DNA of 42,827 nucleotides from Thermoanaerobaculia bacterium. GTDB lineage: Bacteria; Acidobacteriota; Thermoanaerobaculia; Multivoradales; JAHZIX01. Shown piece after piece: positions 2,224 through 42,827 of this stretch. Each line of letters starts with the position of its first letter. The first letter of the stretch is position 1. The translations under genes and the position numbers were made by a program. A model generated the notes under the pieces. It saw only the letters and a list, made by a program, of their open reading frames with translations. It made no database searches and was not told the origin of the DNA. The DNA lies in contig JALXFE010000460.1 of NCBI GenBank assembly GCA_027069135.1, positions 1-42,827 of the forward strand, given 5' to 3'.

Positions 2224-3477
2224 TCAAACGGAATTTCTGGCTTTTTCGGATTGCAGGCGATTTCGTAAGATGCAGTTCTCAAAGGCTTTGACGGCGTGGA
2301 CCGCCATTTTTCGGAGCTGGGCGACCTCGATTTCCGGGGTCCTCAAGGGAGTGTCGACATAGACCAGGCAAAGGGTCTGCCGATGGCTGGTCAGGGGGAT
2401 GATTCCACAGCTCTCAGGCCACGCCGCGCCGCGCCAGCAGGAGAGGAACCGACGGTTGGCTTCGTGCCGGGCCATGGGACCGATGTGTAGGCTCCCACCG
2501 AGAATCAGATTGAGGAAAGCGGACGGTTCTTCGGGGCCGATCTGCAGATCGGAGAATTCCTTGGCGTTCAAGCCTGCCCCATGAGCCATCCACCCCTTGA
2601 ATCCGGTCTTGAGCGGCTTGAGGAGGGCTACGCGCCGATACAGTCTCGCCAGACCGGTGCGCAGGGCTTCTCCCACGTCGGGAGCTCGGGTCGCTCGCAG
2701 GAGACGTTGCTCGAGGGGCATCGCTGCCAGCTCCTTTTCCGTCATCTGACGAGACAGCTCCTCGCGTTCCGATGGCGAAAGCTCCACGATCTGCACACGG
2801 GTCCTGGGAGCCGGAGCTTGCTGCGCCGGCGGCGAAGGCTCCGGAGAGGATTGCCCCTCGCCTTGCGGCCCGGGTTTTTGAGAGCGATGGGAGCGGGGAA
2901 GAGGAGCCGAGAGCGGGGCGTTCAAGACACCGAGCCGGTCGAGAGAAGGGGGCAGCGGCGCCGCCTTAAACTCTCCACTTTCGCTGCCGGAAGCGGTTCG
3001 ACTCCGGTTGAGCTGTTTGAGAAGCCGAGAGATGCGGGGTGGGCAATCGATGCCGTAAAGCCCTTCAAGCCCTTCGTAGACCCGGGCCTCGTGAAGACTC
3101 AAAGGCAGGATCTTCTTGTTGGTTGCAAAGGCGAGCTCATCCCGCGCAGCCAGGTCCCCGGCGTCTTCGAAAGCCACCGAGAGAGTTCCCGCGGTTTCGT
3201 GAATGGGGAAGACTCGCCGCCGCCGGGCGAGCTCCGTCGGGACCAGAGAGGAAAGGCCCTTGGGAAGGTCCCGGAGCCCGTCGATGGGGCCCTGGGATAC
3301 GCCGGCTCGTTCCGCAAGGACCGTCAGGAGCCGTTCTTCGGAGATGGCGCCGATTTCCAGGAGGCTCGTTCCCAGCCGGCCCCCATATTTTCTTTGCTGA
3401 GCCAAGGCTCGGACGAGCTGCCCCCGGGTGATCCATCCGCGCAGTTGCAGAACCTCTCCCAATCCGAGTTGACTCAA
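2224..3477 (-). CDS. Orphan MshEN (GspE N-terminal) domain protein with GAF-like tail
   Basis: 417 residues. The first ~150 resemble the N-terminal domain of type II secretion / type IV pilus ATPases (GspE_N/MshEN): LGEVLQLRGWITRGQLVRALAQQRKYGGRLGTSL followed by the ISEERLLTVLAERAGV repeat. MshEN domains bind cyclic di-GMP in several proteins. There is no Walker A or B, so this is not the secretion ATPase. A Pro/Ser-rich linker (about 160-235) leads to a C-terminal domain of about 180 residues that ends in a long helix (AVHAVKAFENCILRNRL), as GAF domains do; that fold is a guess. A good sigma70 promoter lies about 50 bases upstream. A role as a signalling adaptor is inference. Confidence 0.7.
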   Translation of the reverse strand: MSQLGLGEVLQLRGWITRGQLVRALAQQRKYGGRLGTSLLEIGAISEERLLTVLAERAGVSQGPIDGLRDLPKGLSSLVPTELARRRRVFPIHETAGTLSVAFEDAGDLAARDELAFATNKKILPLSLHEARVYEGLEGLYGIDCPPRISRLLKQLNRSRTASGSESGEFKAAPLPPSLDRLGVLNAPLSAPLPRSHRSQKPGPQGEGQSSPEPSPPAQQAPAPRTRVQIVELSPSEREELSRQMTEKELAAMPLEQRLLRATRAPDVGEALRTGLARLYRRVALLKPLKTGFKGWMAHGAGLNAKEFSDLQIGPEEPSAFLNLILGGSLHIGPMARHEANRRFLSCWRGAAWPESCGIIPLTSHRQTLCLVYVDTPLRTPEIEVAQLRKMAVHAVKAFENCILRNRLQSEKARNSV

Positions 3478-3534
3478 GTTCCGTGGCCTCCAAGCCTAAG
3501 TCTTTATGAAAAAGAAGTTTATGGCCCAATTGAA

Positions 3535-3563
3535 ATTATATGGACGGTGCTCGCGGTTGTAAA
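3535..3563 (-). promoter_or_regulatory. Sigma70 promoter for the leftward MshEN / HU / S2P genes
   Basis: On the minus strand, TTTACA (3558-3563) and a perfect TATAAT (3535-3540) are separated by exactly 17 bases. The predicted transcription start near 3528 gives a leader of about 50 bases before the gene starting at 3477. This is the best-matching sigma70 promoter I found in the window. Confidence 0.75.
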
Positions 3564-3607
3564 GAATGGCGGTTGTCCAAACACCGAGGCGTTGATATCC
3601 TGAGACG

Positions 3608-5536
3608 ATGAGATGTTCCTCTGCATTCTGCGTTTTCTTCCTACTCTCCCCCCTCCTTGCGGCGGCAGATTCCGTCGATGCATCCCTGAGCTTCGCCATG
3701 GCCAAGCTCTTGGCCGACGAGGGATCCTTCAGAGAGGCTCTTGAATCCTTCGAGAAGGCCGCGGCGGCGGCACCGGAGGATCCCTACATCCGGACCGAAT
3801 ACGCAGAGTTCCTCACTCGGCTGGCGCAGCTTTCGAGGTCTCCCCGATACCGTCAGCAGCAATTGGATCGGGCCCTCGAACAGGCTCGTGTCGCCCAGGA
3901 GCTGGCGCCGGTGGACACCGATGTCCTCAAAGTCGTGGGGGAGACCTACCTCGCGGTTGCGGAGGCGGATCCTCGCGATACCGGACCGCTGCACGAAGCA
4001 GCAAGCGTCTTCGAGAAGATTCGCCAGGCTTCTCCCAACGCGTTGGGGGAGCGGATGACTTTGGGCCAGATCTATACCTATCTGGGAGATCCGGAGAAAG
4101 CGATTCCGGTGTTTCGAGAAGTGATCGCCGCCACACCCCGGGATCGAAGAGCCTATGAGCGCCTGGTGCAGGCCCTGATGGAGGCGGGCCGGGCCGAAGA
4201 GGCCGAGACGGTATTTCAGGAGATCCTGGGTTTCGATCCGGAGGCCAGTCAGGCCCGCCTGGGGCTGGCCGAGCTCCTCGCTCAACGGGGGGAAGCCGGG
4301 GCTGCCGTCCAGGTGCTCCGGGAAGGCTCTGCGGAATTTCAAGCTGGGGATAAGATCCGCCAGCTCTTGGCCGTTCAGCTATATCTCTCCGGAGACTTTC
4401 CCTCCGCATTAGAAGAGCTCGAAGCCATTGACGGCAAGGAAGGCGTCGAGCCCATGGGGGCCCTTCGAGCCCTCATCCTCAGCGCTCAAGGGCGCAACGA
4501 GGAAGCCGCGGCAGAGCTGGAAGAGCTCCTCCGGGAGGATCCCGCCAACGCCGATATCGCCGGTGCCTTAAGCCGGGTCCTGGTGCGTATGGGAAAGAGT
4601 CAAGAGGCAGCTACGGCGCTTCAAGAGGTGACCTTGCGACTCGAGGAGGCCGACAAGGATCGGGGTCTTCGCCTCCGCTTCGAGTGGGCCGAGCTTCTCC
4701 TCGGGGCCGAGGATTGGTCCCAGGCCCTCGAGGTCCTGGAGCCCGTGGTCTCGAGCGAACGACCGCAGCTCCGTGCGGCCGCCGGCCTCTTGCAGGCCGA
4801 GGCTCTTTCGCGGCTCGGCCGCGAGGAAGAAGCCCTAGGTCTCCTGCGAGCCACCGGCTCCGGAGATCCTCCGAGCCGTGCCAAGGAGGCCGAGATTCTC
4901 CTGCAGACCGGCAGCGCAGCGGCGGGGGCCTCCATCCTCGCAGATCTGGCGACCTCCGGCGACGAAACCGACATCGTCGCTGCCGCCTCGGTGTATCAGA
5001 GGCTGGAGCGTTATGGAGATGCGGTCGAGATGCTGGGCCCCTACGTCAAGGACAACCCCAAATCCTTGAGGGCCCTCTTCCTATTCGGAGCCGCCAACGA
5101 ACGCAGCGGTCGCCGGCCGGAAGCCGTCGCTGCCTTTCGCAGTCTCCTCGAGCTGGACCCGACCTTTCCCGAGGCCCTGAATTACCTCGGATATATGTTT
5201 GCGGAGCAGGGCGAGAATCTGGAAGAGGCGGAAGAGCTGATTCTGAAAGCTGTTCGGACGGAGCAGGAGAACGGAGCCTTCGTCGATTCTCTCGGGTGGG
5301 TCTATTTTCAGATGGGCCGCTTCGAGGAGGCCCGCTTGCACTTGGAGAGGGCCGTACGTCTGATGCCCGGAGACGGCACGGTCTTCGAGCATCTGGGCGA
5401 TGCCTATCTGGCCCTGGGCCTTGAGGGAGATGCCCGCGAAGCCTATTTGAGAGCCCTGGAGCTCGAGGATACGGACCAGGAAAAAGTCCGCGGGAAACTC
5501 GCTCCCCTGGCCGAAAAGCCCGGCACTGAGGATTGA
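3608..5536 (+). CDS. Secreted/periplasmic TPR-repeat protein
   Basis: 642 residues with a short signal peptide (MRCSSAFCVFFLLSPLLAAA, cleavage near residue 20) and TPR-type helical pairs through almost the whole length, about fourteen or more. The last block (LNYLGYMFAEQGENLEEAEE, then FVDSLGWVYFQMGRFEEA) matches the large TPR proteins that sit before lolB in pseudomonads (PA4667-type). The start is chosen for the signal peptide; no Shine-Dalgarno is visible, and a weak promoter (TTGTCC, 17 bases, TATCCT at 3573-3601) would put transcription start almost on the ATG, so leaderless translation is possible. Its stop abuts the start of the LolB-like gene. TPRs bind proteins; a role in outer-membrane assembly is inferred from context. 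Confidence 0.85.
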   Translation: MRCSSAFCVFFLLSPLLAAADSVDASLSFAMAKLLADEGSFREALESFEKAAAAAPEDPYIRTEYAEFLTRLAQLSRSPRYRQQQLDRALEQARVAQELAPVDTDVLKVVGETYLAVAEADPRDTGPLHEAASVFEKIRQASPNALGERMTLGQIYTYLGDPEKAIPVFREVIAATPRDRRAYERLVQALMEAGRAEEAETVFQEILGFDPEASQARLGLAELLAQRGEAGAAVQVLREGSAEFQAGDKIRQLLAVQLYLSGDFPSALEELEAIDGKEGVEPMGALRALILSAQGRNEEAAAELEELLREDPANADIAGALSRVLVRMGKSQEAATALQEVTLRLEEADKDRGLRLRFEWAELLLGAEDWSQALEVLEPVVSSERPQLRAAAGLLQAEALSRLGREEEALGLLRATGSGDPPSRAKEAEILLQTGSAAAGASILADLATSGDETDIVAAASVYQRLERYGDAVEMLGPYVKDNPKSLRALFLFGAANERSGRRPEAVAAFRSLLELDPTFPEALNYLGYMFAEQGENLEEAEELILKAVRTEQENGAFVDSLGWVYFQMGRFEEARLHLERAVRLMPGDGTVFEHLGDAYLALGLEGDAREAYLRALELEDTDQEKVRGKLAPLAEKPGTED

Positions 5537-6319
5537 TTGGCTAACCGTCCGTGGCGATCCTCGTCCGGGCTCCGAAAGGGGCTCGGGGCTACACTTTGCG
5601 CTCTGGCGACGGTCGTCGCAGCATCGGGTTGTTCTTCCCAGCCTTCTCTGGCACCCCTTCCCGGGCCGCCCCCGGTTCTGGCCGCGTCTCCCTGGGAGCT
5701 ACCCCAGGAGGCCTTCGCTACGCAGAGACTCTTCCGGGTCCGATTCGAGAGCGAGGATGGGGATGGGCGTTTCCGGCTGACTCTGCGTCTCGTCGATGCG
5801 GAGCGCTTCCAGCTCCGCGCCATCGATCCCCTCGGTCGGTCGGTTTGGACCCTCCATTCGGATCGGGGGAGTTCCTTATTTCTTGACCACCGGGAACGTC
5901 GAGCCTGCACCTTCGGGCCTCGGGTAGATCTGACGGAGCTCTACTTGGGCTCATTTCCGGCCCGAGACCTGCCAGCGCTCATTCTTGGCCGGATCCCCGC
6001 CCAACCGATGGGGGATCCTCTTTGGGGCAGGGAAGAATCGATGGAATCTCAGACTCTCGAATTCCGAGATCAGCAAGATCGGGGCTGGAGCAGCCGTTGG
6101 GCCCGTGGGCGTCTGATCAGTTGGTCTCTGCGGTCTGCGGCGGGGGAACCACTGGCGTCGTTACAGCGGGAGGAGAACGGCTTTCGGTTGCAGGACCGCC
6201 GTCGTCGACTGGAGGTTCAGTGGCGGGAAGTTGCCGCCGAGCCCCTTCGCAAGGCCCTCGAGAAACCCGAGACCCCTTCGAGCTATCGCCAGGATGGCTG
6301 CTTCGCCGGGGCTGGCTAG
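5537..6319 (+). CDS. LolB-like outer-membrane lipoprotein
   Basis: 260 residues with a TTG start directly after the TGA of the TPR gene, so the two are translationally coupled. The signal sequence ends in a lipobox with acylated Cys32 (VVAASGC). A Pro-rich stretch then leads to a beta-rich domain (RLFRVRFES, RFRLTLRLVDAERFQLRAID, GRSVWTLHSD) of the LolA/LolB/DUF4292 type, expected to hold a lipid or lipoprotein in a hydrophobic half-barrel. Position after the TPR gene and upstream of prs, rplY and pth matches lolB of gamma-proteobacteria. Sequence similarity alone is weak, so the name rests mainly on context, lipobox and fold pattern. I give no gene symbol for that reason. Confidence 0.65.
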   Translation: MANRPWRSSSGLRKGLGATLCALATVVAASGCSSQPSLAPLPGPPPVLAASPWELPQEAFATQRLFRVRFESEDGDGRFRLTLRLVDAERFQLRAIDPLGRSVWTLHSDRGSSLFLDHRERRACTFGPRVDLTELYLGSFPARDLPALILGRIPAQPMGDPLWGREESMESQTLEFRDQQDRGWSSRWARGRLISWSLRSAAGEPLASLQREENGFRLQDRRRRLEVQWREVAAEPLRKALEKPETPSSYRQDGCFAGAG

Positions 6320-31376: not shown

Positions 31377-33044
31377 CTACTCGATCTCATCCGTATCCGA
31401 GGAATCGCTGTCCGCCGCGGCCAGAGCCTGACGGCTCGCGGGCAATCTCACCCGCTGCTTTTCTAGGAACCCTCGCTCACCATCAATCAGTTTCTGCAGT
31501 CTGGCTTCGATGACCCTTTCCCGATTACCGTCCCGAATCAGGGCTCGGGCACCGTCTGAAAAACCATGGCTTACAAGGATGGATTCATCCTGATTTGTCA
31601 GATCATTCCAAGTCTGTCCTGAGTGGTCACGATCGGCAAACATCCTGTTCGCCGGACTACTCCTAAGAGGACCCGGGAGGCTGCTGCTGACGTACGCCAG
31701 AGCCCCGGGGCCGAGCTCGGAAAGGAGCTCCCCTGGCCGAAGGGGAGAAGGAACTCCGTGGATAGATTGCGGATGAAGTGAGACCAGGTACAGAAGAAAA
31801 GCGCGAACTCGGGCACTCCGCGCGTCAAATCGCTCCGGGAAAGGTTCTGCAGGAGACTCCAAATCGAAGACGTCGAATTCTCTGCGTTCACCTCTCGCCA
31901 GTTCTCGCATCTCCTCCAGCGATTTCCCCACACGCGCCGTATTGACTCCACCAAACCATGCTGTAAAAGAAGTGACCCAGAACCACCGGCGCAGCAGCGA
32001 TTCCAGTTCCGAGTCGGATGGAGCCTTCCTGAGGCGAAAGAACTCGGCGAGCAGCACGAGTTGAAGTCCGTAGGGTAGAAGCCGGTCCGAGGTGACTCCA
32101 AGGTCCTCAAGAAACTTCAAAGCCAGGCGAAGCCCCCGCGTAGCATCTTCGAAGGCTTCCGGCAGAGCCTCTCGCACCTCGTCCCGTACCATCAGGCCTT
32201 CCCAGTCCTTGGCATAGATATCTCGGCCCATCGCCGCTAGAACCGAGCGGAGGATGAACCCGCGGTCGAGGCAGCCAAATCCCCGATGGGAGATCTCCGC
32301 CTGGAATTCATCGAGCTTCGTGGCTAGGTGGAACTGGCCCTCCCGGTAGGTCAGAGCTGAGACCATCTGGTCAGCGGTCATTCGTCGGCCCCGGAGGTTC
32401 AGTCTCGCAAAGACGGTGACCGCTGCATCCAGATTGGCATCCTTGATCGTGATGGTGGGAACCTGGTAGTCACGAAAGGCGTTGGCAAGCCGATCAGCTG
32501 CCTGAAGGAGGGTCTCTACGCTCCTTGGGGCTGCAGTTGTCTCGATGTGGCGGCATGCCGCGAGAAAGCCCGAGGTTGAGAGCAAGGACCGAACAGGGAA
32601 ATGATGGACCTCGGCTCCGCCACGCGGTTCCGGCAAGAATTCTCTTTCCTCGAGGTCATAGTAGACCCGCCAGTTGACTCCGGCAGTCAACTTCGAGGAC
32701 TTCTCAGGAAGTTGAAGGGTACCGGCGAGCGTCGACACGCGCTGTTGTCCGTCGAGAAGGTAACTCACAACACCCTTCGGTCGCTCTTTGACTTCGATAG
32801 GACCTACCTGATCAATACTCGTGACCGTCGAGTCAGTTTCCCAAAGGAGGATGCTCCCGATGGGGTAGCCCTCCACGATGCTGTCCAATAATTGGAGTAT
32901 TTGATGTTGCTTCCAAACGAACGGTCGCTGGAATCGCGGAACCCGAAGAGCACCTCCGGTGACCCGTTCGAGCAACTTTCCTACGAAGACTACTTCCGGG
33001 GTGACTTCAATCCGTTTCAATTCACGACTTTGCATCCGCCTCAT
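31377..33044 (-). CDS. DUF262 (GmrSD N-terminal-like) protein
   Basis: 555 residues. DUF262 core at the N-terminus: RVPRFQRPFVWKQHQILQLLDSI (36-58), GSILLWE, and the ParB/Srx-like nucleotide motif SYLLDGQQRVSTLAG with DGQQR at 98-102; later VFARLNLRGRRMTADQMVSALTY. DUF262 is the N-terminal half of GmrSD type IV restriction enzymes and uses NTPs. The DUF1524 HNH nuclease half is not evident, although ANRMFADRDHSG near the end could be a relic. The remainder is helical. Its ATG overlaps the stop of the TOPRIM-like gene as ATGA, so the two are translated together. Anti-phage function is inferred. Confidence 0.85.
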   Translation of the reverse strand: MRRMQSRELKRIEVTPEVVFVGKLLERVTGGALRVPRFQRPFVWKQHQILQLLDSIVEGYPIGSILLWETDSTVTSIDQVGPIEVKERPKGVVSYLLDGQQRVSTLAGTLQLPEKSSKLTAGVNWRVYYDLEEREFLPEPRGGAEVHHFPVRSLLSTSGFLAACRHIETTAAPRSVETLLQAADRLANAFRDYQVPTITIKDANLDAAVTVFARLNLRGRRMTADQMVSALTYREGQFHLATKLDEFQAEISHRGFGCLDRGFILRSVLAAMGRDIYAKDWEGLMVRDEVREALPEAFEDATRGLRLALKFLEDLGVTSDRLLPYGLQLVLLAEFFRLRKAPSDSELESLLRRWFWVTSFTAWFGGVNTARVGKSLEEMRELARGERREFDVFDLESPAEPFPERFDARSARVRAFLLYLVSLHPQSIHGVPSPLRPGELLSELGPGALAYVSSSLPGPLRSSPANRMFADRDHSGQTWNDLTNQDESILVSHGFSDGARALIRDGNRERVIEARLQKLIDGERGFLEKQRVRLPASRQALAAADSDSSDTDEIE

Positions 33045-34000
33045 ACCTCCTTGCGAATCAGGCTAAGACCGTGCTCGAGATCCCCGCGTCCTCGTTTCAA
33101 TAGCTCCTTCTTCGGGGAAACGCTCCAGTTTTTCCAGCAGTGGTGAACTTTTCGGCCGAATCCAGTCTTGAGTAGGTCGCGGTCTTTCTTGTTGAGCTCG
33201 TTGAAAAGCTTTCGTTCGGCGGGTTGCGGCTTGGTGGGGAGGCCGTTCTTCATATCTAAGTAATCTTTCTGATCATCCGAGAGTCGGTCCCAGGCTTCCA
33301 CTCGTTGCGCGTGGTCTCGGCCGCTGTCAGGCCGAGCCTCGAGGAGAGGGCGAGGTAGGTAGTTTTCGGCTTCTCTTTTTGCCAAGATCCAGCATGGAAG
33401 GTTTTGCTGCTCGCACTTCTCCTTGAGTCGCTGCGCTTCGAGGCTGGGTTTCTCCTCAGGTCCCTTCCTATCGCTATCGACCATGACAACAAGTCTTGGT
33501 CGCACCTGTGACGAAGCACACTTTCTCGTAACCTCCTCGACCATCTGTCCTTTTCCACCGACGCTATCAAATTGAAGAGGCTCTCCGCTCATCTTCAGTA
33601 GTTTCCTGAGGTCGTGATCCAATTCATGAATGACACGGCCCAGAAAGCCGTGACCGTCGCTCACTCGGTTCTCAACGAGAACCACCAGGGGCTGCTCTGC
33701 CAGGCGTGCAGCGCTTTCTGGAGAAAGTTTCTCGGAGCCGTTGGGGGCGTTGGTGACTCGAAGTCGACGACCATGCGGGCCAGGTCCGCTCCAGGCACTG
33801 CGGCGCGTAGCCGCCACGAAGAGCTCGCTTACCCAGGCCCCGGCCCTTCCACGATCGCAAATCCAGGTTGTTTCGGAGAACCTCTCAAGGCCTGTTACGT
33901 CCCAGAGGTGCCAGCCATCACCAATTTTGTGGAGCAGACGGTCGAGCCATCTATGAGCCGCCGGATCGTCGGCTACCGAAGTTTCGATCTCGATCAGCAC
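33041..34000 (-). CDS. TOPRIM-like (OLD/AriB-type) protein, separate from its ATPase
   Basis: 319 residues from GTG 34000, whose first base overlaps the stop of the ATPase gene. Three spaced acidic motifs look like a TOPRIM nuclease fold: Glu in PLVVLVENRVSDGHGFL, DSD in RLVVMVDSDRKG, and Glu in CWILAKREAENYLPRPLL. The REAENYLP segment recalls OLD-family TOPRIM and DUF4435 proteins. The C-terminal 90 residues are basic and Lys-rich. A split ATPase + TOPRIM pair is the layout of PARIS (AriA/AriB); here a DUF262 gene follows. Nuclease or sensor activity is inferred from motifs only. Confidence 0.6.
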   Translation of the reverse strand: MLIEIETSVADDPAAHRWLDRLLHKIGDGWHLWDVTGLERFSETTWICDRGRAGAWVSELFVAATRRSAWSGPGPHGRRLRVTNAPNGSEKLSPESAARLAEQPLVVLVENRVSDGHGFLGRVIHELDHDLRKLLKMSGEPLQFDSVGGKGQMVEEVTRKCASSQVRPRLVVMVDSDRKGPEEKPSLEAQRLKEKCEQQNLPCWILAKREAENYLPRPLLEARPDSGRDHAQRVEAWDRLSDDQKDYLDMKNGLPTKPQPAERKLFNELNKKDRDLLKTGFGRKVHHCWKNWSVSPKKELLKRGRGDLEHGLSLIRKEV

Positions 34001-35241
34001 TAGGCAATTCTTTCATGGGCCATCCGTCGAATGGCGAGGATCTCATCGTAGTCCTCGTAGAAGACGCCGTCCGGCCATCCTTCCACTTCGCCGTCCTCAG
34101 TCACGTGAATCCTGCGGGCAGAAGCGAGACCCTCTTCCGAGATATCGATCCAGTAGATGGCCAGATCTTCAGGAGGTAGTTTGCCCTCCACGACTCGACG
34201 GCGTGCCCTCAGCAGCAGCATTTCAGAATGGGTCTCCACCAAGAGAGGCCGATTCCTGCCAGCGAGACTCTCGAGGAGCAAGTCGGCGACGGCGCCATGG
34301 GCTCCCGGATGGAGCTCTGCCTCGGGATGCTCGATCAAATCGATCCCGGGGCCGCGTTCTTCCGCGGAAAGGGCTTGCACAGCCACCGGCAACACCTGGG
34401 CAAGCCCCTGGCCCGCTTGATCCATGGAGATAGTGGTGCTCATCCGGGGGTCACGGATCTCGAGAAAGGCCACATCTCCCTGCATCCGAAGATCAACCGT
34501 AACTCCGAAGTGTTCCCGGTACCATTCCCGTACCTTGGCCCGCAGAGTGTCCGAGTCGGCAAGAAGATAAGCTGTCTGCATTCCATCGAGATTGGCGGTG
34601 GCCCATTGTTCTCCAGGAAATGAAAAAGGAGAGGAGGGGAGGCTCCGTGGTGACTTGAGGTATGAAACGGATCTTGCCCAGCTAACAAGGTCGTCCAAGA
34701 TCGATTCGACTCTCTCGGTTGCCTCTCCGAATTTCGAAAGGTCGGGGCGGAGCCCACGCCAGGAGACCGGTGTCGTCTCGTCCGTGCCCGGTAGGCCCGA
34801 GAGCTCGTAGGTTGAGTCGCCTGGGTCTAGACCTGTTCGTTCCAGGTTAAGTGATAGGTCATCGGAGCGGAGGATCCAGGACTTTACGACTTGACGGACT
34901 GCCGCGCCGGCGCCGGTGACCACGGACTGGACGACCACCTTGAGGTTGATTCGAGTGGATCCGCTTCTGAATTCTGCGGTGAGCGTGATGTTGCCGTGAA
35001 TGGCACGGTGGCTGATCAAATCCTGCAGGGTCCTTCCATGGACCAAGCCGGAGGATGCGAGCGGCAGGGGGGTCTCGTGTCGATTTCCAAGGAGCCCTCC
35101 GGCGAGCAAGGGGATGGCTCGTGCCAGAGCGCTCTTACCCGAGCTATTTCTTCCTACCAAGATCGTCAAGGGCCGCACGCAGAGTTTACAGGGCTCGAGG
35201 TACCCTTTATACCGTTCAACTTGGAGGCTCTGAAGGTGCAT
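34000..35241 (-). CDS. OLD/ABC-type ATPase, DUF3696-like
   Basis: 413 residues from ATG 35241 with AAGGAG 8 bases upstream; an in-frame GTG at 35304 is less likely. SMC/OLD-like ATPase: VERYKGYLEPCKLCVRPLTILVGRNSSGKSALARA with Walker A at 30-37, signature-like DQAGQGLAQVLPVAVQAL, Walker B DLIEHPEAELHP, and the switch His in VETHSEMLLLRARR. The end (EDGEVEGWPDGVFYEDYDE) fits the DUF3696 C-terminal motif. No TOPRIM is fused; a TOPRIM-like gene follows at once. Such ATPases act as scaffolds or sensors in defence systems such as PARIS and Gabija. It is first of the ATPase / TOPRIM / DUF262 operon. Confidence 0.88.
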   Translation of the reverse strand: MHLQSLQVERYKGYLEPCKLCVRPLTILVGRNSSGKSALARAIPLLAGGLLGNRHETPLPLASSGLVHGRTLQDLISHRAIHGNITLTAEFRSGSTRINLKVVVQSVVTGAGAAVRQVVKSWILRSDDLSLNLERTGLDPGDSTYELSGLPGTDETTPVSWRGLRPDLSKFGEATERVESILDDLVSWARSVSYLKSPRSLPSSPFSFPGEQWATANLDGMQTAYLLADSDTLRAKVREWYREHFGVTVDLRMQGDVAFLEIRDPRMSTTISMDQAGQGLAQVLPVAVQALSAEERGPGIDLIEHPEAELHPGAHGAVADLLLESLAGRNRPLLVETHSEMLLLRARRRVVEGKLPPEDLAIYWIDISEEGLASARRIHVTEDGEVEGWPDGVFYEDYDEILAIRRMAHERIA

Positions 35242-35335
35242 GACGAAGGCTCCTTGGACGAAGGGTTCTGTAGGCCCTCGGCCTATCTTTGAAGAATTGC
35301 ACACTAGAGAAGAACCCTGTAGGCCAGGATTGGGC

Positions 35336-35385: not shown

Positions 35386-36411
35386 TCAAGGCCGGATGGA
35401 GTTGAGGGCGACGAAGGTTCCGCCGTTGCGCTCGCATAGGGCGCGCATGAGGGTGGCGAAGCGGATGCCGGTGGTCTGGGAGGCGCCGAAGGCGGTGAAG
35501 ACGACGGGGAAGCCGACGGCGTGGATGCGCACCCGGGGGTTGCCGTTGCGGTCCCGGTGGTTGAGCTTGTCGACGGTGTCCAGCACCTCTTGGATGGAGT
35601 CCCCCGTGAACTCGTCGCCGAAGACGTAGAGGCTCACTTTCTTTTTTGAAACACCGAAGGTTCGGATCGCCCGAGTGATGCCTTCGACCGGGCTGCTGTT
35701 GCTGACCACCCGCCAGCTGCGAAGCCGGTTGAGGATGGCTTTTCTGCGACCGGGGGTGTCCGGAATCCACTTGCCGGCATAGGACGAAAACATGTATTGG
35801 CCCTGGTCACTCATCACCTGGATGCCCTTGACCTTGGGATAGATGGCGAGGGTTTCCGTCATTTTACGGATCACCAGGGGCCAGGCGTTGCCGGTCATGC
35901 TGCCGGAGGTATCGATGATGAAGATGATGTACTCGCTGTCGACGGGCACCCCGCCGACGGTGGCGTCCCGGGGGGGCGGGGCCGCCGCTTGTCGTTGCAG
36001 GCGTTTCATTTCCTCGGTGAGCTTCTGCTGGGCCGCCAGCATCCGACCCTCCAGGATGTCCTGAACCTCGGAGAGCTCCCGGGTCGCGGCGTGCTCTCCG
36101 GGGAGCTTGGAAAGGTCCGCCCGGAGGCGGGCGATGTTTTCTTCCTCGATCGATTCCTGGCGTCGCTTGCCCACCAACTGGCGCTCGAGGATGGTCGTTT
36201 CCCCGCGGATTTCGAAGAGCTCTTCCTGGAGGGCCAGGACCCGGGCTTCGAGATCCTCGCGGGCGGATTCGAGAGCGACGGGCTCACCGATCTTGGAGAG
36301 CACCAACAACATGACGATGGCGCCGAAGCCGCAGCTGATGGCGTCGAGGAACGAGAGGCTCATGCCATCCGGGCCTCCCCGGGACCGGCGCCGCTTGCCC
36401 GAGCGCCTCAC
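35386..36411 (-). CDS. Membrane-anchored von Willebrand factor A protein (vWA2)
   Basis: 341 residues from GTG 36411, which overlaps the stop of the preceding vWA gene as GTGA; this start leaves a basic N-terminus (RRSGKRRRSRGG) before the membrane segment SLSFLDAISCGFGAIVMLLVL, as in the paralogue. A long coiled coil (about 55-150) is followed by a vWA domain whose metal site DTSGSM lies in EYIIFIIDTSGSM. The last residues (GTFVALNSIRP) end at the domain. vWA domains bind protein ligands through a metal ion. It is the last gene of the seven-gene run; partners are presumably the MotA/TolQ channel and the PEGA proteins. Confidence 0.88.
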   Translation of the reverse strand: MRRSGKRRRSRGGPDGMSLSFLDAISCGFGAIVMLLVLSKIGEPVALESAREDLEARVLALQEELFEIRGETTILERQLVGKRRQESIEEENIARLRADLSKLPGEHAATRELSEVQDILEGRMLAAQQKLTEEMKRLQRQAAAPPPRDATVGGVPVDSEYIIFIIDTSGSMTGNAWPLVIRKMTETLAIYPKVKGIQVMSDQGQYMFSSYAGKWIPDTPGRRKAILNRLRSWRVVSNSSPVEGITRAIRTFGVSKKKVSLYVFGDEFTGDSIQEVLDTVDKLNHRDRNGNPRVRIHAVGFPVVFTAFGASQTTGIRFATLMRALCERNGGTFVALNSIRP

Positions 36412-37508
36412 GGCCAGTCCCTCGAGGGGGCCAGGAAGGAGCCGCGGGTGGCCAGAGCCAGCTTCCAATAGGCGCTGGCGGCCATGGGATCCCCCTCCAT
36501 GGGGAAGAGGATGACGTTGATGGGGGTCCTCGATGGGTGGGCCCGGAGGGCGCGATCGAAGTGTTTCAGCCGTTCTTTGCCGGAGACCTTGCCCCGGGAT
36601 GGCTCCCGGGCCCCCCGGGTGGGGAGGCCGTCCACCAGAAGAATCACATTGTCCGGCGGTGGGCGCATGGCGGCGGCGGCGGCCAGGCCCGCGTAGAGGT
36701 TGGTGCCTCCGGCGGGTGCTGCCTCGCGCAGGGCGTCGACGGTTTCATCGAGGGCCTTGCGATTCCCGGCGGAGCGCCAGGCGCCGGTGTCCCCCGGCAC
36801 CACCGGGCCCGCGGAATCGGCGAAGGTGTAGACCTGGAATTGGCTCGAGCGTGGCAGCTGGGTGGTCAGCCAGTCCACCGTAGCCACTACTTGGCGCCAC
36901 TTGCGGGCCTTGCGCTTGCGTGCTTCCGGCAGGTTGCGCAGACGGATGATGTTGACGATGGTCGCATCCAGCATGCTGGCGGAGGTGTCGACGAGGATGA
37001 GGATCCGTTCGCCGCCGATCTTCAAGCCCGTGAGGTATTGCCGGTCGCCATCGCCGACGAAGGTCCGTAGACGATCCCCGGGAGTCTCCTGGGACGGTTG
37101 AGAGGCAGACAGGCGCCGAGCCTTATCCTCCAGGGTCTTGAGATCGGTCTTGAGCTTGTTGAGATGCTCCCGTCGGGCGAGGGTCGTGTTCTCGTAGGTG
37201 GCAAGCTCCTCGCGGATGGCTTCGAGAGTCTCCAGCAGGCGCCGGGAGAGACCCTGGGTGATCCGGGATGTGTCGTCGATATCTTCGGTGGTATTGCGTA
37301 GCCGAACGAGATTTCGGGAACCTTCGAGGACTTCCTCCTCCAGACGATCGACCTCCGCGGAGAGGTCTTCATGGAGGTCGTTGGCTCGTACGCCGACGTT
37401 GGCGTTGATGATCATGTAGAGGAGGACGACGGCCCCCAGACCGCAGGTCATGGCGTCCAGGAAGGCCAGACCGAAGACGTTGGGGCTTCTACGCCGGGCC
37501 ATGCTCAT
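36408..37508 (-). CDS. Membrane-anchored von Willebrand factor A protein (vWA1)
   Basis: 366 residues; ATG 37508 (or 37502) overlaps the upstream gene by 20 bases. Same plan as its neighbour: basic start ARRRSPN, membrane segment GLAFLDAMTCGLGAVVLLYMII, coiled coil (about 45-125, LEEEVLEGSRNLVRLRN and following), then a vWA domain with metal site DTSASM in ILILVDTSASM and AGGTNLYAGLAAA supplying the conserved Thr. The shared FLDAxxCGxGAxV membrane motif with vWA2 shows common descent and perhaps a shared intramembrane partner. No enzyme motif is seen. Confidence 0.88.
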   Translation of the reverse strand: MSMARRRSPNVFGLAFLDAMTCGLGAVVLLYMIINANVGVRANDLHEDLSAEVDRLEEEVLEGSRNLVRLRNTTEDIDDTSRITQGLSRRLLETLEAIREELATYENTTLARREHLNKLKTDLKTLEDKARRLSASQPSQETPGDRLRTFVGDGDRQYLTGLKIGGERILILVDTSASMLDATIVNIIRLRNLPEARKRKARKWRQVVATVDWLTTQLPRSSQFQVYTFADSAGPVVPGDTGAWRSAGNRKALDETVDALREAAPAGGTNLYAGLAAAAAMRPPPDNVILLVDGLPTRGAREPSRGKVSGKERLKHFDRALRAHPSRTPINVILFPMEGDPMAASAYWKLALATRGSFLAPSRDWP

Positions 37509-38544
37509 TTCCCGAGGTGGGTTTCGGAGCCTTCAGGCGGCGGAGGAAGACCGCGGCGCCGGAGCCGGAGGCCTCAAGACCTAGGCTTTGGGCCACCTCG
37601 AGGGCGCTCCTCGCGACGGCTCCCCGGGGCAGGGTCGCCAGATCCCCCGGGCAGAGGGCTTCGAGGCGGGAAGCGAGACCCGGGAGCTGGGCCCCGCGAT
37701 GGGAGAGCAGAAGGCTCGCCCTTCCGACCTGCCGGAGCATGTCCCGGACCCCTTGAAGGATTTTTCCGTAGGGCTCCTCGACGGCGGCGATCAATCGGCT
37801 GCGGCTCACCGTCGCCCGGAAGTCTCCACCGGAACCCTCGAAATGAGCTTCGAAGTCTTTCCCTCGCTCCGCCTCGGCGAGCCAGCCCGGGAGCCGGTCG
37901 TGGAGGGTTTGCTCGGTGGCTCCCGCATGGAGGGGATCGAAGCGGGTCCGCCGCACGAGGGTCTCGGCGATGTGGCGAGCCCAGAGCTGTTGGAGGTCCT
38001 CCAGGCCCACATGGGCGAGGGTTTGAGTGGCACCGCCGACGATCTGGGAACCCGCCACGGTGGCCGTCAAGGTGAATCGGTGGAGGTGCGGATCCAGGTA
38101 GAGAACCCGCCCCTCGAGACCGGCGGCTCTCACCGCTACCACGGCGGAATCCATCAGACCCACCACCGGCCGATGGCTGGCCTTAAAGATCCCCAAGAGG
38201 ATGCCCAACTGCTGGGAGGAATAGGCCGAAGACAGAGCCAGGACGGCTCCCTTTTGCAAGGGAGGGTGACGGCTCCACACTTCTTCCAGGTGGGCGTGGG
38301 CCAGATCCGCCAGACTCCAATCCCCAGGGAAGGGACGGCCGGCGGGATCGAGGCTCAAATGCTGCCAAAACCGGCTGTGAACGGCCCGGGGCATGCGGCG
38401 AGCTCGCCGGGCGGCCTCGAGGCCCGTGCGCAGCGCCGTGCCCTCCAGGAGGGCAAAGCCCGGGCTCTCCTCTGAGGCTGAGGGGGCCTCGCCGTCGCCG
38501 AAAGCGGTGAGGAGGCCGGCGTCGTGGATTTCGAGCGCGAGCAT
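37489..38544 (-). CDS. Hsp70/actin-like ATPase-fold protein
   Basis: 351 residues. Segments placed like the Hsp70/actin ATPase motifs: phosphate-1-like LALEIHDAGLLTAFGD at the N-terminus, VVGLMDSAVVAVRAAG in the connect-1 position, phosphate-2-like VLYLDPHLHRFTLTATVAG, then SRSRLIAAVEEPYGKIL, and an adenosine-site-like ASLLLSHRGAQLPGLASRLEAL. No substrate-binding domain follows, and the glycines of phosphate-1 and -2 are partly lost, so ATP hydrolysis is uncertain. It sits between the MotA/TolQ gene and vWA1, overlapping the latter by 20 bases. The fold call is by pattern, not alignment. Confidence 0.55.
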   Translation of the reverse strand: MLALEIHDAGLLTAFGDGEAPSASEESPGFALLEGTALRTGLEAARRARRMPRAVHSRFWQHLSLDPAGRPFPGDWSLADLAHAHLEEVWSRHPPLQKGAVLALSSAYSSQQLGILLGIFKASHRPVVGLMDSAVVAVRAAGLEGRVLYLDPHLHRFTLTATVAGSQIVGGATQTLAHVGLEDLQQLWARHIAETLVRRTRFDPLHAGATEQTLHDRLPGWLAEAERGKDFEAHFEGSGGDFRATVSRSRLIAAVEEPYGKILQGVRDMLRQVGRASLLLSHRGAQLPGLASRLEALCPGDLATLPRGAVARSALEVAQSLGLEASGSGAAVFLRRLKAPKPTSGNEHGPA

Positions 38545-38550
38545 AAGAGG

Positions 38551-39351
38551 TCAGAGGACCTTCAGGTGGCGCACCAGGTGCTCGTCCACATAGTCCTCGC
38601 TCTCGAGGACCAGGCGCTCCTGCTGCAATTGGAGCTGGTGCATGAGGAACATGAGGACGATGCTGATGAGGAGGGCGACGAAGGTGGAATTGAAGGCCAC
38701 GCCGAGGCTTTGGGTGACACCGGAAATATCTCCCTCCACCGCCTGATGGGCTTGCCCCAGGGCCTCGCCGATCCCCCGAACCGTGCCGATGAAGCCGATG
38801 GACGGGATGGCCCAGGCGATATATCGGATCATCGACAGCTCCGACTCCAATCGTTCCGCCTCGCCCTCGCAGACCCCATTAGCGGTGTCCGAGACGTCTT
38901 GGATATTGCGCGTCGCGGCGAATCGGCGCAGGGCGGATAGGAGGGCCCGGGGCACTAGCAGACGCCGGTCCCCATCCGGCAAGGCCTCGACCTGTCGGGC
39001 GTACTCCCGGGCGTCGACGGGAAGAATGCGGGTGCCCTCGGGGACCGAGACCAGCTCGAGGCCGAGCAACCGGTGTTCCCGGCGCAGAATCCAACCCTTG
39101 AAGCTCATGATGGCTAGAGCCCACAAGCCCAGGACGAAACATGCCTCCTGCTCGAAATCGCGGATGATGACGACCAGATGCCGTTCCTGGATGTAGGTCG
39201 GATCCTCTTGCATGCGGATCCGCTGCTGGTTGAGGATGGCGTCCGCCTGGGGCCGCACCCAGGCGACGTAGACCGCGTGGACCACGATGACGGCGATGAT
39301 CAAAGAGGCCAGCTGGTAGACGAACTCGACGGGGTAGGTGTTCTTCCGCAT
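38551..39351 (-). CDS. MotA/TolQ/ExbB-family proton channel protein
   Basis: 266 residues with about four membrane segments: LASLIIAVIVVHAVYVAW near the start, FVLGLWALAIMSFKGWIL, and the two channel helices IRYIAWAIPSIGFIGTVRGIGEAL and LGVAFNSTFVALLISIVLMFLMH. The IPxxGFIGTVxGIxxA and AFxxTxxAL motifs define the TolQ/ExbB/MotA group, whose pentamers use proton flow to drive a partner. A cytoplasmic loop (about 95-175) lies between. The next upstream gene encodes a small one-helix protein in the place where an ExbD/TolR-like partner would be expected. Confidence 0.9.
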   Translation of the reverse strand: MRKNTYPVEFVYQLASLIIAVIVVHAVYVAWVRPQADAILNQQRIRMQEDPTYIQERHLVVIIRDFEQEACFVLGLWALAIMSFKGWILRREHRLLGLELVSVPEGTRILPVDAREYARQVEALPDGDRRLLVPRALLSALRRFAATRNIQDVSDTANGVCEGEAERLESELSMIRYIAWAIPSIGFIGTVRGIGEALGQAHQAVEGDISGVTQSLGVAFNSTFVALLISIVLMFLMHQLQLQQERLVLESEDYVDEHLVRHLKVL

Positions 39352-39359
39352 CCGGATTC

Positions 39360-39548
39360 CTAGATGTCTACGGGGAAAGAGATGGCGCTATCGGCGGAAA
39401 GCTTTTCCGAGGGGATGAAGCGGTCGTCTTCCCCTGCTCCTTTCCCTTGGGCTTCGGCGGATCGCTCGATGACGCCGAAGATCAGTGCTGAGAGCAGCAG
39501 GAGCATCAAAGCGAGGAGTAGGGGATACGGTCGGCGTTCTTGGGTCAT
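39360..39548 (-). CDS. Small single-pass membrane protein beside the TolQ-like channel
   Basis: 62 residues from ATG 39548, with GGGAG 8 bases upstream. One helix (YPLLLALMLLLLSALIFGVIE) after a short basic N-terminus, then about 35 residues outside, acidic (GAGEDDRFIPSEKL). It is far shorter than ExbD/TolR (about 140) and lacks their periplasmic domain; no Asp lies in the helix. It lies 8 bases upstream of the channel gene and may be a cut-down partner. Confidence 0.7.
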   Translation of the reverse strand: MTQERRPYPLLLALMLLLLSALIFGVIERSAEAQGKGAGEDDRFIPSEKLSADSAISFPVDI

Positions 39549-39570
39549 GGTGGATTCTCCCATCCTGCGG

Positions 39571-42138
39571 TCATTGGGCGTAGCGGGCGATGCGAAAACC
39601 GACGTCCGGCCGGGGCCCGGAGCCGTAGTCCCGATAGGTGAGCCGCAGCTCGGTGACGGTGCTATGGCGCCAGCTGGAGCCCCGGATGACGTGATGGTCT
39701 CCCTCCGTCGGCCCCAGAGGATCCGTGGCCTTGCCGGAGCGACCGGTGCCGTAGAGGTCGTTCACCCACTCGGCGACGTTACCCCCAAAGTTATAGAAGC
39801 CCCCGGCATCCGGACCGAAGGCGTCCGTCGGCGCCGTGGCGGCGAAACCGTCACTGTAGCCCGGGACCAGGGACGGCGCGATGCCCTGGGCGGAGGCGTC
39901 GGCGTAATTTCCGGACTTGGGCGCCACCGGCAGAGAATCGCCCCAGGGATATTTCTTGGGTCCGGAGCCTCGAGGGTACCGAGCCGCCCAGGCCCATTCG
40001 GCTTCCGTCGGCAGGCGATAGCCGAGGGTCACGGGTTGAACCAGGACCCACCGCCCCCCTTCCTGTCTCTCATAAGCCGGTGCCAGCCCCTCCTCCCGGC
40101 TCAGCCAGTTGCAGTAGGCCACGGCGTCGTCCCAGCTGACCCGAACCACGGGGTGGTGGTCCGTTTCCAGACTCTTATCACCGGCCTTGCCGGAGAGGTG
40201 CTTCTTGCGGAAGCGCCGGAACTGCCGGTTGGAGACCTCCTGGCTGGCGAGATATACCCGGCGAACCAGCTGGGCCGATCTCTCGACTTCGTTGGCCCGG
40301 CGGCCGGGCTCCCGGCGTGGTGCCCCGAGAGTCAGGCTGCCGCTGGGCAAGAGGCGCAGCTCGTGGCCCTGAGGGGTCGTGAGCACCGCCGGCATCGCCT
40401 TGGCCAGGAGCTCTTCCTCGCTCTCGAGTCTCGCCTTTATCGAGTGGGTCTGTCCCGGCCTCGGGGTGACGGTCTGGCGGTAAGTCTGGTAGCCGTCCCG
40501 GCGCACCTCGACGGTGTGGGGCCGTGCCGGAAGCTCCAGGGTTTGGGAGCCCTGGCCGCGGGATTCGCCGTCCACCAACACCTCTGCGTCGGCGGGCCAC
40601 GTTTCGATCTTGACCTCACCGACCCGGGGGGGGAGATCGACGCGTTGTCGCCGGGTCTCTCGGGGAGCCACCGTAAGCTTGAGGGTGGCGGTGTCATGGC
40701 CGGCCTTGGAGATCTTGATCTCGAGAGCCCGGTTCGGATCCACCGATAGCTCGAGGGGGGTCTCTCCCCGGAAGGTCCCGTCGACGGTGACCGTGGCCCC
40801 GGAGGGCTCGCTTTCCAACGTGAGGTGGCCGGCGGCAATGGGGAGCGAGATGGAAGGGACCGTCAAGGGCTCCTTGGCGACCACCTCGATGCTGCGGCGG
40901 CGGGTCTCCCGGCCGGCCATGGAGAGCTCCAGCCGGTGGCTCCCAGCCCCCAGCTCCGCTGTCAAGGGAGTGGTGCCCAGGGAGCGGCCGTCGATGCGGA
41001 CGGTGGCTCCGGAGGGATCCGAGGAAAACGATACGGGAGCCCAGCGTGGCTCCAAGGCGACGTCGAGGGTCTGGAGCTTGCCGGCTCCCTCGATGGTGAT
41101 GTTTCCCACGTAATCCTGGTGGCGGGGGGCGGTGATCCGCACCTGCCGCTCACCGGCGGCGATCTCGAGGGGGCTGGCCAAAGGGGTGCGTCCGGCGGCC
41201 TCACCATCGACGAGAATCTCTGCCTTGAGGGCGCCGGTGGAGATCTCCAACCGGCCCGGGAGCTTGCGCAAGGAAAAGCTCGCTGTCCCCTTCCCTTGTT
41301 TCGTGACCTCGAAAGGCTCCTCCAAGGGGTAGTAGCCTTCCTTTTCGGCCAGAAGGGTGTATCGGCCCGGCCGCAAGAACGTTCGGCCGCCGACTTCCAA
41401 AGAGAAACCTCCCTGAATCTCCCGATGGTCCGGGGTCGGGTCGATAGAGATCTCCACCGGCCTGGACGTGAACACCCACGCCGCCGCCCCTCCCAGGACC
41501 AGTAGGAGGAGGAGGCCGAGAAGCCCGGCGGGGGATCCCCACCGCCGCCGCCGCGGTGCCTGAAAACCCGCCCGAGGTCGAAAGGCGATGGGCTGGATTA
41601 GCTCTCCACCACTCGGCTGCCCCTTGGCGTCGCCACCACTCGGCTGCCCCTTGGCGTCGGGCCCCTTGGCGTCGTCGGCGGCGTCCTGCGGAGGGATTGC
41701 TCCGGCCGCGGCAGCTCCCGGTCGGGGAGGGGGGACCAGAGTGGGAGGCGCCTTGGGCCGGGCGGCTTCGATCGTGGCTATCAGACGCAGCTGCCCGCCC
41801 TGGCGGTGGATGTTGAGAATTCCCGGGCCCAGGCTCACCCGGTCGCCGTCGTGAAGCCAGTGGGAGGCCTTAAGAGGGATCCCGTTGACCGCCAACGGGA
41901 GAGGATTTCCTTCGGCTCCCTGGAGAAAGAGGTCCCCTTGCGAAAGGCCCAGGTAGGCGGCCGGCTCGGAACGCCGGTGAGCCTCCGGGTGATCCTCCGC
42001 TTCGGACCAAAGCTCGAGATCCGCGCCGGCCCCGCCGAGGCTCAAGGGGAAGTCCTCGGGGCCCACCCGTCGCACCCCCCGCAGGTCTTCGAGGGTAAAG
42101 ATCTTGGGCGCGGAATCGCTCAAATCTTCTCCTCGCAT
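39571..42138 (-). CDS. FHA-like / membrane / PEGA-repeat / SUMF1-domain protein
   Basis: 855 residues. N-terminal ~120 resemble an FHA domain (ISO pattern: SLGGAGADLEL, YLGLSQGDLFLQG, VNGIPLKASHWLHDGDRVSLG). An Ala/Pro/Gly linker with a 9-residue tandem repeat (DAKGQPSGG) leads to one membrane helix (about 207-225, LLGLLLLLVLGGAAAWVF). Outside are about five PEGA-type beta repeats (SDPSGATVRIDGRSLGTTPL, ESEPSGATVTVDGTFRGETP, ETWPADAEVLVDG). The C-terminal ~240 is a formylglycine-generating-enzyme (SUMF1) domain: EVSNRQF, VSWDDAVAYCNWLS, YRLPTEAEWAWAAR, NFGGNVAEWVNDLYG, RGSSW, VGFRIAR. The region after RGSSW lacks the catalytic Cys of true FGE, so a binding role is likelier. It links cytoplasmic phospho-Thr sensing to the periplasm or cell surface. 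Confidence 0.85.
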   Translation of the reverse strand: MRGEDLSDSAPKIFTLEDLRGVRRVGPEDFPLSLGGAGADLELWSEAEDHPEAHRRSEPAAYLGLSQGDLFLQGAEGNPLPLAVNGIPLKASHWLHDGDRVSLGPGILNIHRQGGQLRLIATIEAARPKAPPTLVPPPRPGAAAAGAIPPQDAADDAKGPDAKGQPSGGDAKGQPSGGELIQPIAFRPRAGFQAPRRRRWGSPAGLLGLLLLLVLGGAAAWVFTSRPVEISIDPTPDHREIQGGFSLEVGGRTFLRPGRYTLLAEKEGYYPLEEPFEVTKQGKGTASFSLRKLPGRLEISTGALKAEILVDGEAAGRTPLASPLEIAAGERQVRITAPRHQDYVGNITIEGAGKLQTLDVALEPRWAPVSFSSDPSGATVRIDGRSLGTTPLTAELGAGSHRLELSMAGRETRRRSIEVVAKEPLTVPSISLPIAAGHLTLESEPSGATVTVDGTFRGETPLELSVDPNRALEIKISKAGHDTATLKLTVAPRETRRQRVDLPPRVGEVKIETWPADAEVLVDGESRGQGSQTLELPARPHTVEVRRDGYQTYRQTVTPRPGQTHSIKARLESEEELLAKAMPAVLTTPQGHELRLLPSGSLTLGAPRREPGRRANEVERSAQLVRRVYLASQEVSNRQFRRFRKKHLSGKAGDKSLETDHHPVVRVSWDDAVAYCNWLSREEGLAPAYERQEGGRWVLVQPVTLGYRLPTEAEWAWAARYPRGSGPKKYPWGDSLPVAPKSGNYADASAQGIAPSLVPGYSDGFAATAPTDAFGPDAGGFYNFGGNVAEWVNDLYGTGRSGKATDPLGPTEGDHHVIRGSSWRHSTVTELRLTYRDYGSGPRPDVGFRIARYAQ
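41606..41659. repeat. 27-bp tandem repeat encoding DAKGQPSGG twice
   Basis: Two identical 27-base units (41606-41632, 41633-41659), then a partial 15-base third copy. In frame in the linker between the FHA-like domain and the membrane helix, so copy changes alter only linker length. Confidence 0.85.
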
Positions 42139-42827
42139 AGGACGGTGAGGGTCGGGGGCTCCTTGCCGGCCTCGACGGCCAGGGTGCGCCGGACGTCCCG
42201 GTAGCCTTCCCGGGATCCGACGACGGTGTATCTCCCGGGCCGCAACTCGAGCCGCCGTTGGGTGAAGGTCCCCAGGGTGCCTACCCGATAGACCACGATT
42301 TCCGTGAGCCCGTCGGATTTGAGCTCAACCTGTACCGGGTGCGAATAGTCGGCGATGAGCTTTGCCAGGCGAGCTCGCTGGCCCTCGAGCTTCGGTCCCG
42401 CCGGCTCGATCTCCCGGGCCTCTTCGAGAGCTATGGAGGCCTCCCGCAGGACTTCCTGCGTCGAAAGCCGGTGGGGATGTCCGAGGTATCCGTCGAGGCG
42501 GCTCGCGAGGCGTGCCCGGCCGATGGCCCGCTCGCGGCCCCGGACGGCGTCGTCGAGAGCCGGGTCGAGGGCCAGAACCCGCTGGTAGTGGGTGGCGGCG
42601 GCGGCCCAATCTTCTTCTTTTTCGAGGGCTGTAGCTCGGCGCAAATGGTCGGCGATGCCCTGGAGCACGAGGCCCGCCTCGGCCCGGGCGAGGCCGTCGA
42701 GGACGCTGGGGGACGAGGGGTTGAGGTCCTTCGCCTTGAGGAAGGCGACCTTGGCCTCGGCCGGCGCGCCCCGCTCCAAGGCCCGGAGGCCGTCGGACAT
42801 GGCCCGGCCGAAGGATTCGTCTACCAC
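42120..42827 (-). CDS. TPR / PEGA-like protein (runs to the window edge)
   Basis: 235 residues visible; the frame is open to the last base, so the N-terminus probably lies beyond the window. TPR-like helical pairs at the start (ALERGAPAEAKVAFLKAKDLNPSSPSVLDGLARAE; EEDWAAAATHYQRVLALDPALDDA), then a PEGA-like beta module at the end (RRLELRPGRYTVVGSREGYRDVRRTLAVEAG). Its 3' end overlaps the next gene by 19 bases, so it belongs to the same operon. The PEGA module matches those of the next protein, suggesting joint surface binding. Confidence 0.75.
   Translation of the reverse strand: MVDESFGRAMSDGLRALERGAPAEAKVAFLKAKDLNPSSPSVLDGLARAEAGLVLQGIADHLRRATALEKEEDWAAAATHYQRVLALDPALDDAVRGRERAIGRARLASRLDGYLGHPHRLSTQEVLREASIALEEAREIEPAGPKLEGQRARLAKLIADYSHPVQVELKSDGLTEIVVYRVGTLGTFTQRRLELRPGRYTVVGSREGYRDVRRTLAVEAGKEPPTLTVLCEEKI

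Follow-up and report, generated by a model that had tools for sequence, protein, structure and literature searches.

Genetic organization of the operon

The window analysed here, a stretch of 42,827 nt, spans the whole of contig G000:C460, which belongs to a draft genome of 7.2 Mb. Between positions 35386 and 42827 its ORF list contains a run of seven genes, all located on the minus strand and separated by -19, 7, 8, 6, -20 and -61 nt, which agrees with the seven leftward, tightly packed genes (mostly overlapping or within 22 bases) described in an earlier note on this DNA. From the first gene to the last, the run comprises:

42120..42827, minus strand: bitopic protein with TPR and PEGA, of which the window holds just the last 235 aa (TPR_1 7e-6 and PEGA 0.016, both under the Pfam cut-off)
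39571..42138, minus strand: protein of 855 aa with a degenerate FHA domain, a transmembrane (TM) helix, four PEGA copies and a SUMF1/FGE-fold domain (Pfam, NCBIfam, FHA homology, PDB relatives)
39360..39563, minus strand: mini membrane protein of 62-67 aa, one TM helix, conserved C-terminal tail
38551..39351, minus strand: TolQ/ExbB/MotA-like channel, 266 aa (PF01618; T190 and T223 invariant)
37489..38544, minus strand: Hsp70-NBD-fold protein, 351 aa, without a C-terminal FHA domain (AlphaFold model, DnaK match)
36408..37508, minus strand: vWA protein 1, with a TolR/ExbD-like TM helix (invariant D18), a coiled coil and a vWA domain with MIDAS DxSxS
35386..36468, minus strand: vWA protein 2, same layout, with the invariant Asp of its transpore helix (TPH) at D42 of the ORF

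The start of vWA protein 2 is more likely a GTG at 36411, resulting in a 4-nt overlap and a protein of 341 aa. The TPR/PEGA gene is present as described before but starts outside the window: as the window is a whole contig and the gene runs past its end, it is truncated here. A homologue of the gene found upstream in relatives is located where contig C72 ends. This contig and the end of the window share 128 nt, with a single mismatch at the junction, and C72 supplies the N-terminus. The joined reading frame encodes 376 aa with a short cytoplasmic N-terminus, a single TM helix, a proline-rich linker, and then TPR and PEGA. Directly upstream of it, C72 carries two more genes with a mutual overlap of 4 nt, one for a secreted protein of 414 aa and one for a lipoprotein of 284 aa; with these the operon probably comprises at least nine genes. 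Pfam has no match for the mini protein, for the Hsp70-fold protein of the window or for the secreted protein encoded upstream.

Farther upstream, a few genes away from the operon, C72 (locus L130) also encodes an 1185-aa Ser/Thr kinase with TPR repeats (2516-6073), and a gene resembling phosphoglycerate mutase lies between the two. On the other side, directly downstream of the operon in the window (31377-35304), three genes correspond to components A (3e-72), B (3e-39) and C (8e-135) of PDC-M55, a candidate system of anti-phage defence.

A TolQ-like channel and two vWA proteins as probable motor core

The channel matches MotA_ExbB (PF01618) with an E-value of 3.8e-15, and two of its threonines are invariant in the homologue alignment (T190 in 97/97, T223 in 96/96); by analogy with TolQ, ExbB and MotA, we take these to be the pore threonines. 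No ExbD/TolR match was found in Pfam among the genes of the operon. At the N-terminus of each vWA protein is a TM helix of the form FLDxxxCGxGA; the Asp of this TolR/ExbD-like helix is invariant in all 97 and all 87 homologues of the two families, respectively. Pfam recognises VWA_2 in vWA protein 1 (1e-6) and only a weak VWA match, under the cut-off, in vWA protein 2 (0.03); the MIDAS motif DxSxS is near-invariant to invariant across both families, and invariant in the alignment of 87 homologues of vWA protein 2. The two proteins, with their intact MIDAS, had been viewed as adhesion anchors. Since both carry a TolR/ExbD-type helix with an invariant Asp, they are better read as rotor or force-transducing partners of the channel. 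The MotA_ExbB match and the invariant Asp and Thr residues support, as the earlier note had proposed, a probably proton-driven trans-envelope assembly, and one that is conserved. A PDB sequence search with the channel and vWA protein 1 profiles returned nothing at 0.001.

This arrangement was already predicted computationally in 2025 (PMC12204202), in a study the relevant section of which describes a TolQ protein with a heterologous vWA pair, the transpore helix of which carries a proton-binding Asp. Its second vWA family, sampled from Idiomarina, is predicted to form a 5:2 motor of unknown function. The operon shares with this family, as described in that section, a TolQ-like channel gene clustered with genes for two heterologous TPH-vWA proteins, each with a conserved Asp in its TPH, and in neither case is a TolR/ExbD gene recognised, nor is a MotB gene in the operon. 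We infer that the operon core and the Idiomarina family are identical. The same section makes no mention of the PEGA/SUMF1/FHA, TPR/PEGA (kinase), mini-protein and Hsp70-fold partners, or of the joint loss of kinase and FHA described below. Thus, the view of the operon as an undescribed machine no longer holds for its TolQ and paired TPH-vWA core, but its fixed partners, and the kinase switch that relatives have and this genome lost, seem undescribed as far as that section goes. In the open-access literature (preprints and closed papers were outside the search), no paper on the whole operon was found.

Two further loci, L045 (7257-10269) and L041 (7573-10128), contain a TolQ-like gene followed by one or two proteins with an LLD/FLDxxSC TM motif, in which no vWA domain was recognised; they perhaps represent a sister variant of the motor.

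The PEGA/SUMF1 protein and the Hsp70-fold protein

The 855-aa protein matches PEGA (3e-50, four copies) and FGE-sulfatase (2e-39) in Pfam. The closest NCBIfam model for its SUMF1 part is GldK, at 91.9 bits against a cut-off of 350, and its PDB relatives include FGE and PorK, the latter being a non-enzymatic FGE fold (PMC12421860). A functional FGE/SUMF1 enzyme, which has a catalytic Cys pair near the C-terminus, was considered and rejected: the whole protein, which was aligned with human FGE, contains a single Cys and so cannot hold such a pair. The N-terminal domain, noted before as FHA-like, is a genuine homologue of canonical FHA domains (hhalign P 2.6e-6; 4.7e-6 for the Ki-67 FHA), but its alignments lack the Ser-x-x-His of the phospho-threonine site; for this reason it is unlikely, judging from the sequence, to read phospho-threonine in the usual way. 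In a Foldseek search with the whole model, the best 50 matches listed included SUMF1-fold and other beta-repeat chains and no FHA entry. The PEGA/SUMF1 proteins of L107, L093 and their relatives, from several kinase-less gammaproteobacteria, are shorter (about 680-700 aa) and seem to be without the degenerate FHA.

The AlphaFold model of the Hsp70-fold protein (pLDDT 94) matches DnaK with a VIA Z of 32 over 323 residues, and this predicted model thus confirms the Hsp70 NBD fold, also found in Ssz1, that had been proposed. The ATPase function proposed along with it fared differently. Comparison of the family profile with Hsp70 chains shows that the glycine-rich phosphate and adenosine loops (DLGGGT, GGSTR) are missing: a stretch of the type D-x-x-L-H-R stands in the place of DLGGGT, and at what is presumably the position of GGSTR the family has the consensus LSxRxxxLPGL. 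As the phosphate-binding loops are lost, the protein is probably a pseudo-ATPase. It also differs from Hsp70/DnaK in having no substrate-binding domain; in many relatives its C-terminus is instead a canonical FHA domain (Pfam 2e-10 to 4e-14), which is absent from the window's protein. The gene is frequently located between the channel and vWA genes in relatives, and since some operons are without it (L118, L172, L173, L189, L190), it is not essential to the core.

Conservation and distribution

The operon was compared over 80 named loci from Acidobacteriota and Gammaproteobacteria, two of them labelled Rhodospirillaceae. All seven genes occur in order and on a single strand in 37 of the 80, and many of the remaining loci either run into a contig end or are complete except for a detectable mini protein. 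Gene order and strand are hence common to relatives from two phyla, the check that the earlier note had named, and their recurrence places the gene run beyond chance. The exceptions are L185 and L186, where the channel moved behind the vWA genes, and L082-type loci, where genes are inserted before the channel. In L082 (5610-9423) and the similar L087, L088 and L091, this insert lies on the opposite strand between mini protein and channel, and its genes look polyphosphate-related by sequence. The flanking genes vary by lineage, with an OmpA-family protein in some and small lipoprotein-like proteins in others (L073 14465-15202 and relatives; L120 14200-14913; L121 1061-1759).

A relative of vWA protein 1 was found in 57 of the 61 sampled genomes of the gammaproteobacterial family of Parahaliea, in 30/369 genomes of the class sample and in 2/396 genomes of the Acidobacteriota sample. 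Within the window's own taxonomic order the distribution is patchy, with a strong channel match in about 12 of 71 relatives. The acidobacterial members form one well-supported group in the tree, a finding that speaks against a contaminated window genome. By sequence comparison, the predicted motor core is recurrently accompanied by the genes for the PEGA/SUMF1, TPR/PEGA, mini and Hsp70-fold proteins, an association that is new here.

Co-occurrence of the kinase and the FHA domain

In many relatives a Ser/Thr kinase (PF00069, 1.8e-29 and 3.2e-35) has the TPR/PEGA homologue as its C-terminal portion, while L068, L071 and L112 have a separate kinase gene just upstream instead of the fusion. With the kinase state assigned by hand from catalytic residues and the FHA state scored by motif, all 30 operons with an active kinase have an FHA on the Hsp70-fold protein, compared with 4 of the 48 whose kinase is absent or a pseudokinase (none in 44/48). 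The association has a Fisher p of ~1e-17, calculated over related species with their kinship ignored; the tree needs about five changes of kinase state, the association rests on about four to five independent changes, and among independent pairs an average of 2.6 agree and 0 are opposite, which is not significant (sign test p ~0.25). Each of the four exceptions is FHA-plus but kinase-minus, which fits a loss of the kinase before the FHA. In the consensus, the Arg with which FHA domains usually contact phospho-threonine is not conserved.

The window's operon has neither the kinase nor an FHA on its Hsp70-fold protein. A phospho-threonine reader, as suggested for this DNA, is therefore not borne out in this genome, where the operon is without a kinase, the remaining FHA-like domain lacks Ser-x-x-His and no FHA is left on the Hsp70-fold protein; phospho-regulation is plausible in relatives, through kinase genes and canonical FHA domains that the earlier note had no view of. 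A close parallel is the threonine phosphorylation pathway of the T6SS (TagQRST-PpkA-Fha; PMC10482370), which similarly combines a transmembrane Ser/Thr kinase, an FHA protein and secreted or lipoprotein partners, and, as near some of the operons here, a PP2C phosphatase. The operon differs from it in having no recognised T6SS genes, an FHA that forms one protein with the Hsp70 fold, and a TolQ-type motor as presumed output. A PP2C phosphatase, and also a kinase that carries zinc ribbons, are encoded near some Woeseiaceae operons (L063 1130-1987; L072 297-1586).

Alternative explanations

A surface-motility or secretion motor, comparable to GldKLM of the Bacteroidota or Agl/Glt of Myxococcus, would account for a PMF motor next to a PorK/GldK-like SUMF1 domain, PorK/GldK being the hub of a PMF-driven machine (PMC12421860), and gliding of Myxococcus involves a vWA adhesin, CglB (PMC13104615). 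We regard this explanation as unlikely, since no further T9SS or Agl/Glt component was recognised in the operon (Pfam, NCBIfam) and the vWA proteins are anchored in the inner membrane via their TM helix rather than being surface adhesins. GldKLMN (PorKLMN) does share with the operon a 5:2 PMF motor, here predicted, beside a non-enzymatic SUMF1/FGE-fold protein, but SUMF1 is carried here by an inner-membrane-anchored PEGA protein and there by an outer-membrane lipoprotein; vWA proteins take the place of GldM, and no GldN was recognised. The GldK likeness, at a score that does not reach the NCBIfam cut-off, would thus be one of working principle only. It is also quite improbable that the operon encodes no motor at all, being instead a static signalling scaffold in which vWA and PEGA proteins serve as sensors for the kinase and the channel homologue is merely a membrane protein derived from a channel. 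The many sensor-like modules (PEGA, TPR, SUMF1, FHA, kinase) would fit such a scaffold, but operons that have lost kinase and FHA still keep the invariant Asp and Thr residues of the presumed proton path, so that the motor features outlive the signalling ones.

Anti-phage defence of the Zorya type, with a TolQ/MotA-like motor and its envelope parts as the sensor of infection, deserves mention because the nearest defence match of the channel is ZorA, very weak at E 0.001 (PADLOC), and because the candidate system PDC-M55 lies directly downstream. ZorAB also resembles the operon in coupling such a motor to an unusual periplasmic partner, which is, however, OmpA-like (ZorB) and not a vWA protein. 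No ZorB, ZorC or ZorD match was obtained among the genes scanned with PADLOC, the flanking genes of relatives differ (lipoprotein-like, OmpA-like), and presence in 57/61 genomes of one family, by the vWA protein 1 relative, is unlike the patchy occurrence of defence genes. This near-universal presence argues for a housekeeping role in that family and makes defence very unlikely.

Proposed mechanism and significance

We consider it likely that the operon encodes a PMF-driven trans-envelope motor of the TolQ/ExbB/MotA class, whose fuller form would have a kinase-FHA gate that was lost in the window's lineage. Besides the conserved gene order and residues, the independent 2025 prediction of TolQ with paired TPH-vWA proteins and the relation of the SUMF1 domain to PorK/GldK speak for this motor. 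A putative TolQ-like pentamer would hold the TM helices of a heterodimer of the two vWA proteins, which would stand in for TolR/ExbD, and protons moving past the invariant Asp and Thr would turn or shift this heterodimer. Through the periplasmic coiled coils and vWA heads of the heterodimer, the force would reach the two bitopic proteins, PEGA/SUMF1 and TPR/PEGA, from which secreted or lipoprotein partners may carry it onward to the wall or outer membrane. In the fuller form, a transmembrane Ser/Thr kinase (kinase-TM-TPR-PEGA) would read the periplasm and phosphorylate a threonine, to be read by the FHA of the cytoplasmic Hsp70-fold pseudo-ATPase, which, judging from its domains and the co-loss, may gate or dock the motor. 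More specifically, and only tentatively, this would be a phosphorylation-gated 5:2 motor with the FHA-tagged Hsp70-fold protein as a clutch under the TPR/PEGA-sensing kinase, a clutch that several lineages, including that of the window, have lost. As its lineage lost both the kinase and the FHA reader, the window's motor is probably ungated or otherwise regulated.

To our knowledge, only few TolQ-class proton-driven envelope motors are understood. The motor predicted here is near-universal in a gammaproteobacterial family with cultured members, and its recurrent set of partners could reveal what the motor pulls on. Phospho-gating of the motor is an idea open to direct test, as nature offers a series of operons with a kinase, with a pseudokinase and without either.
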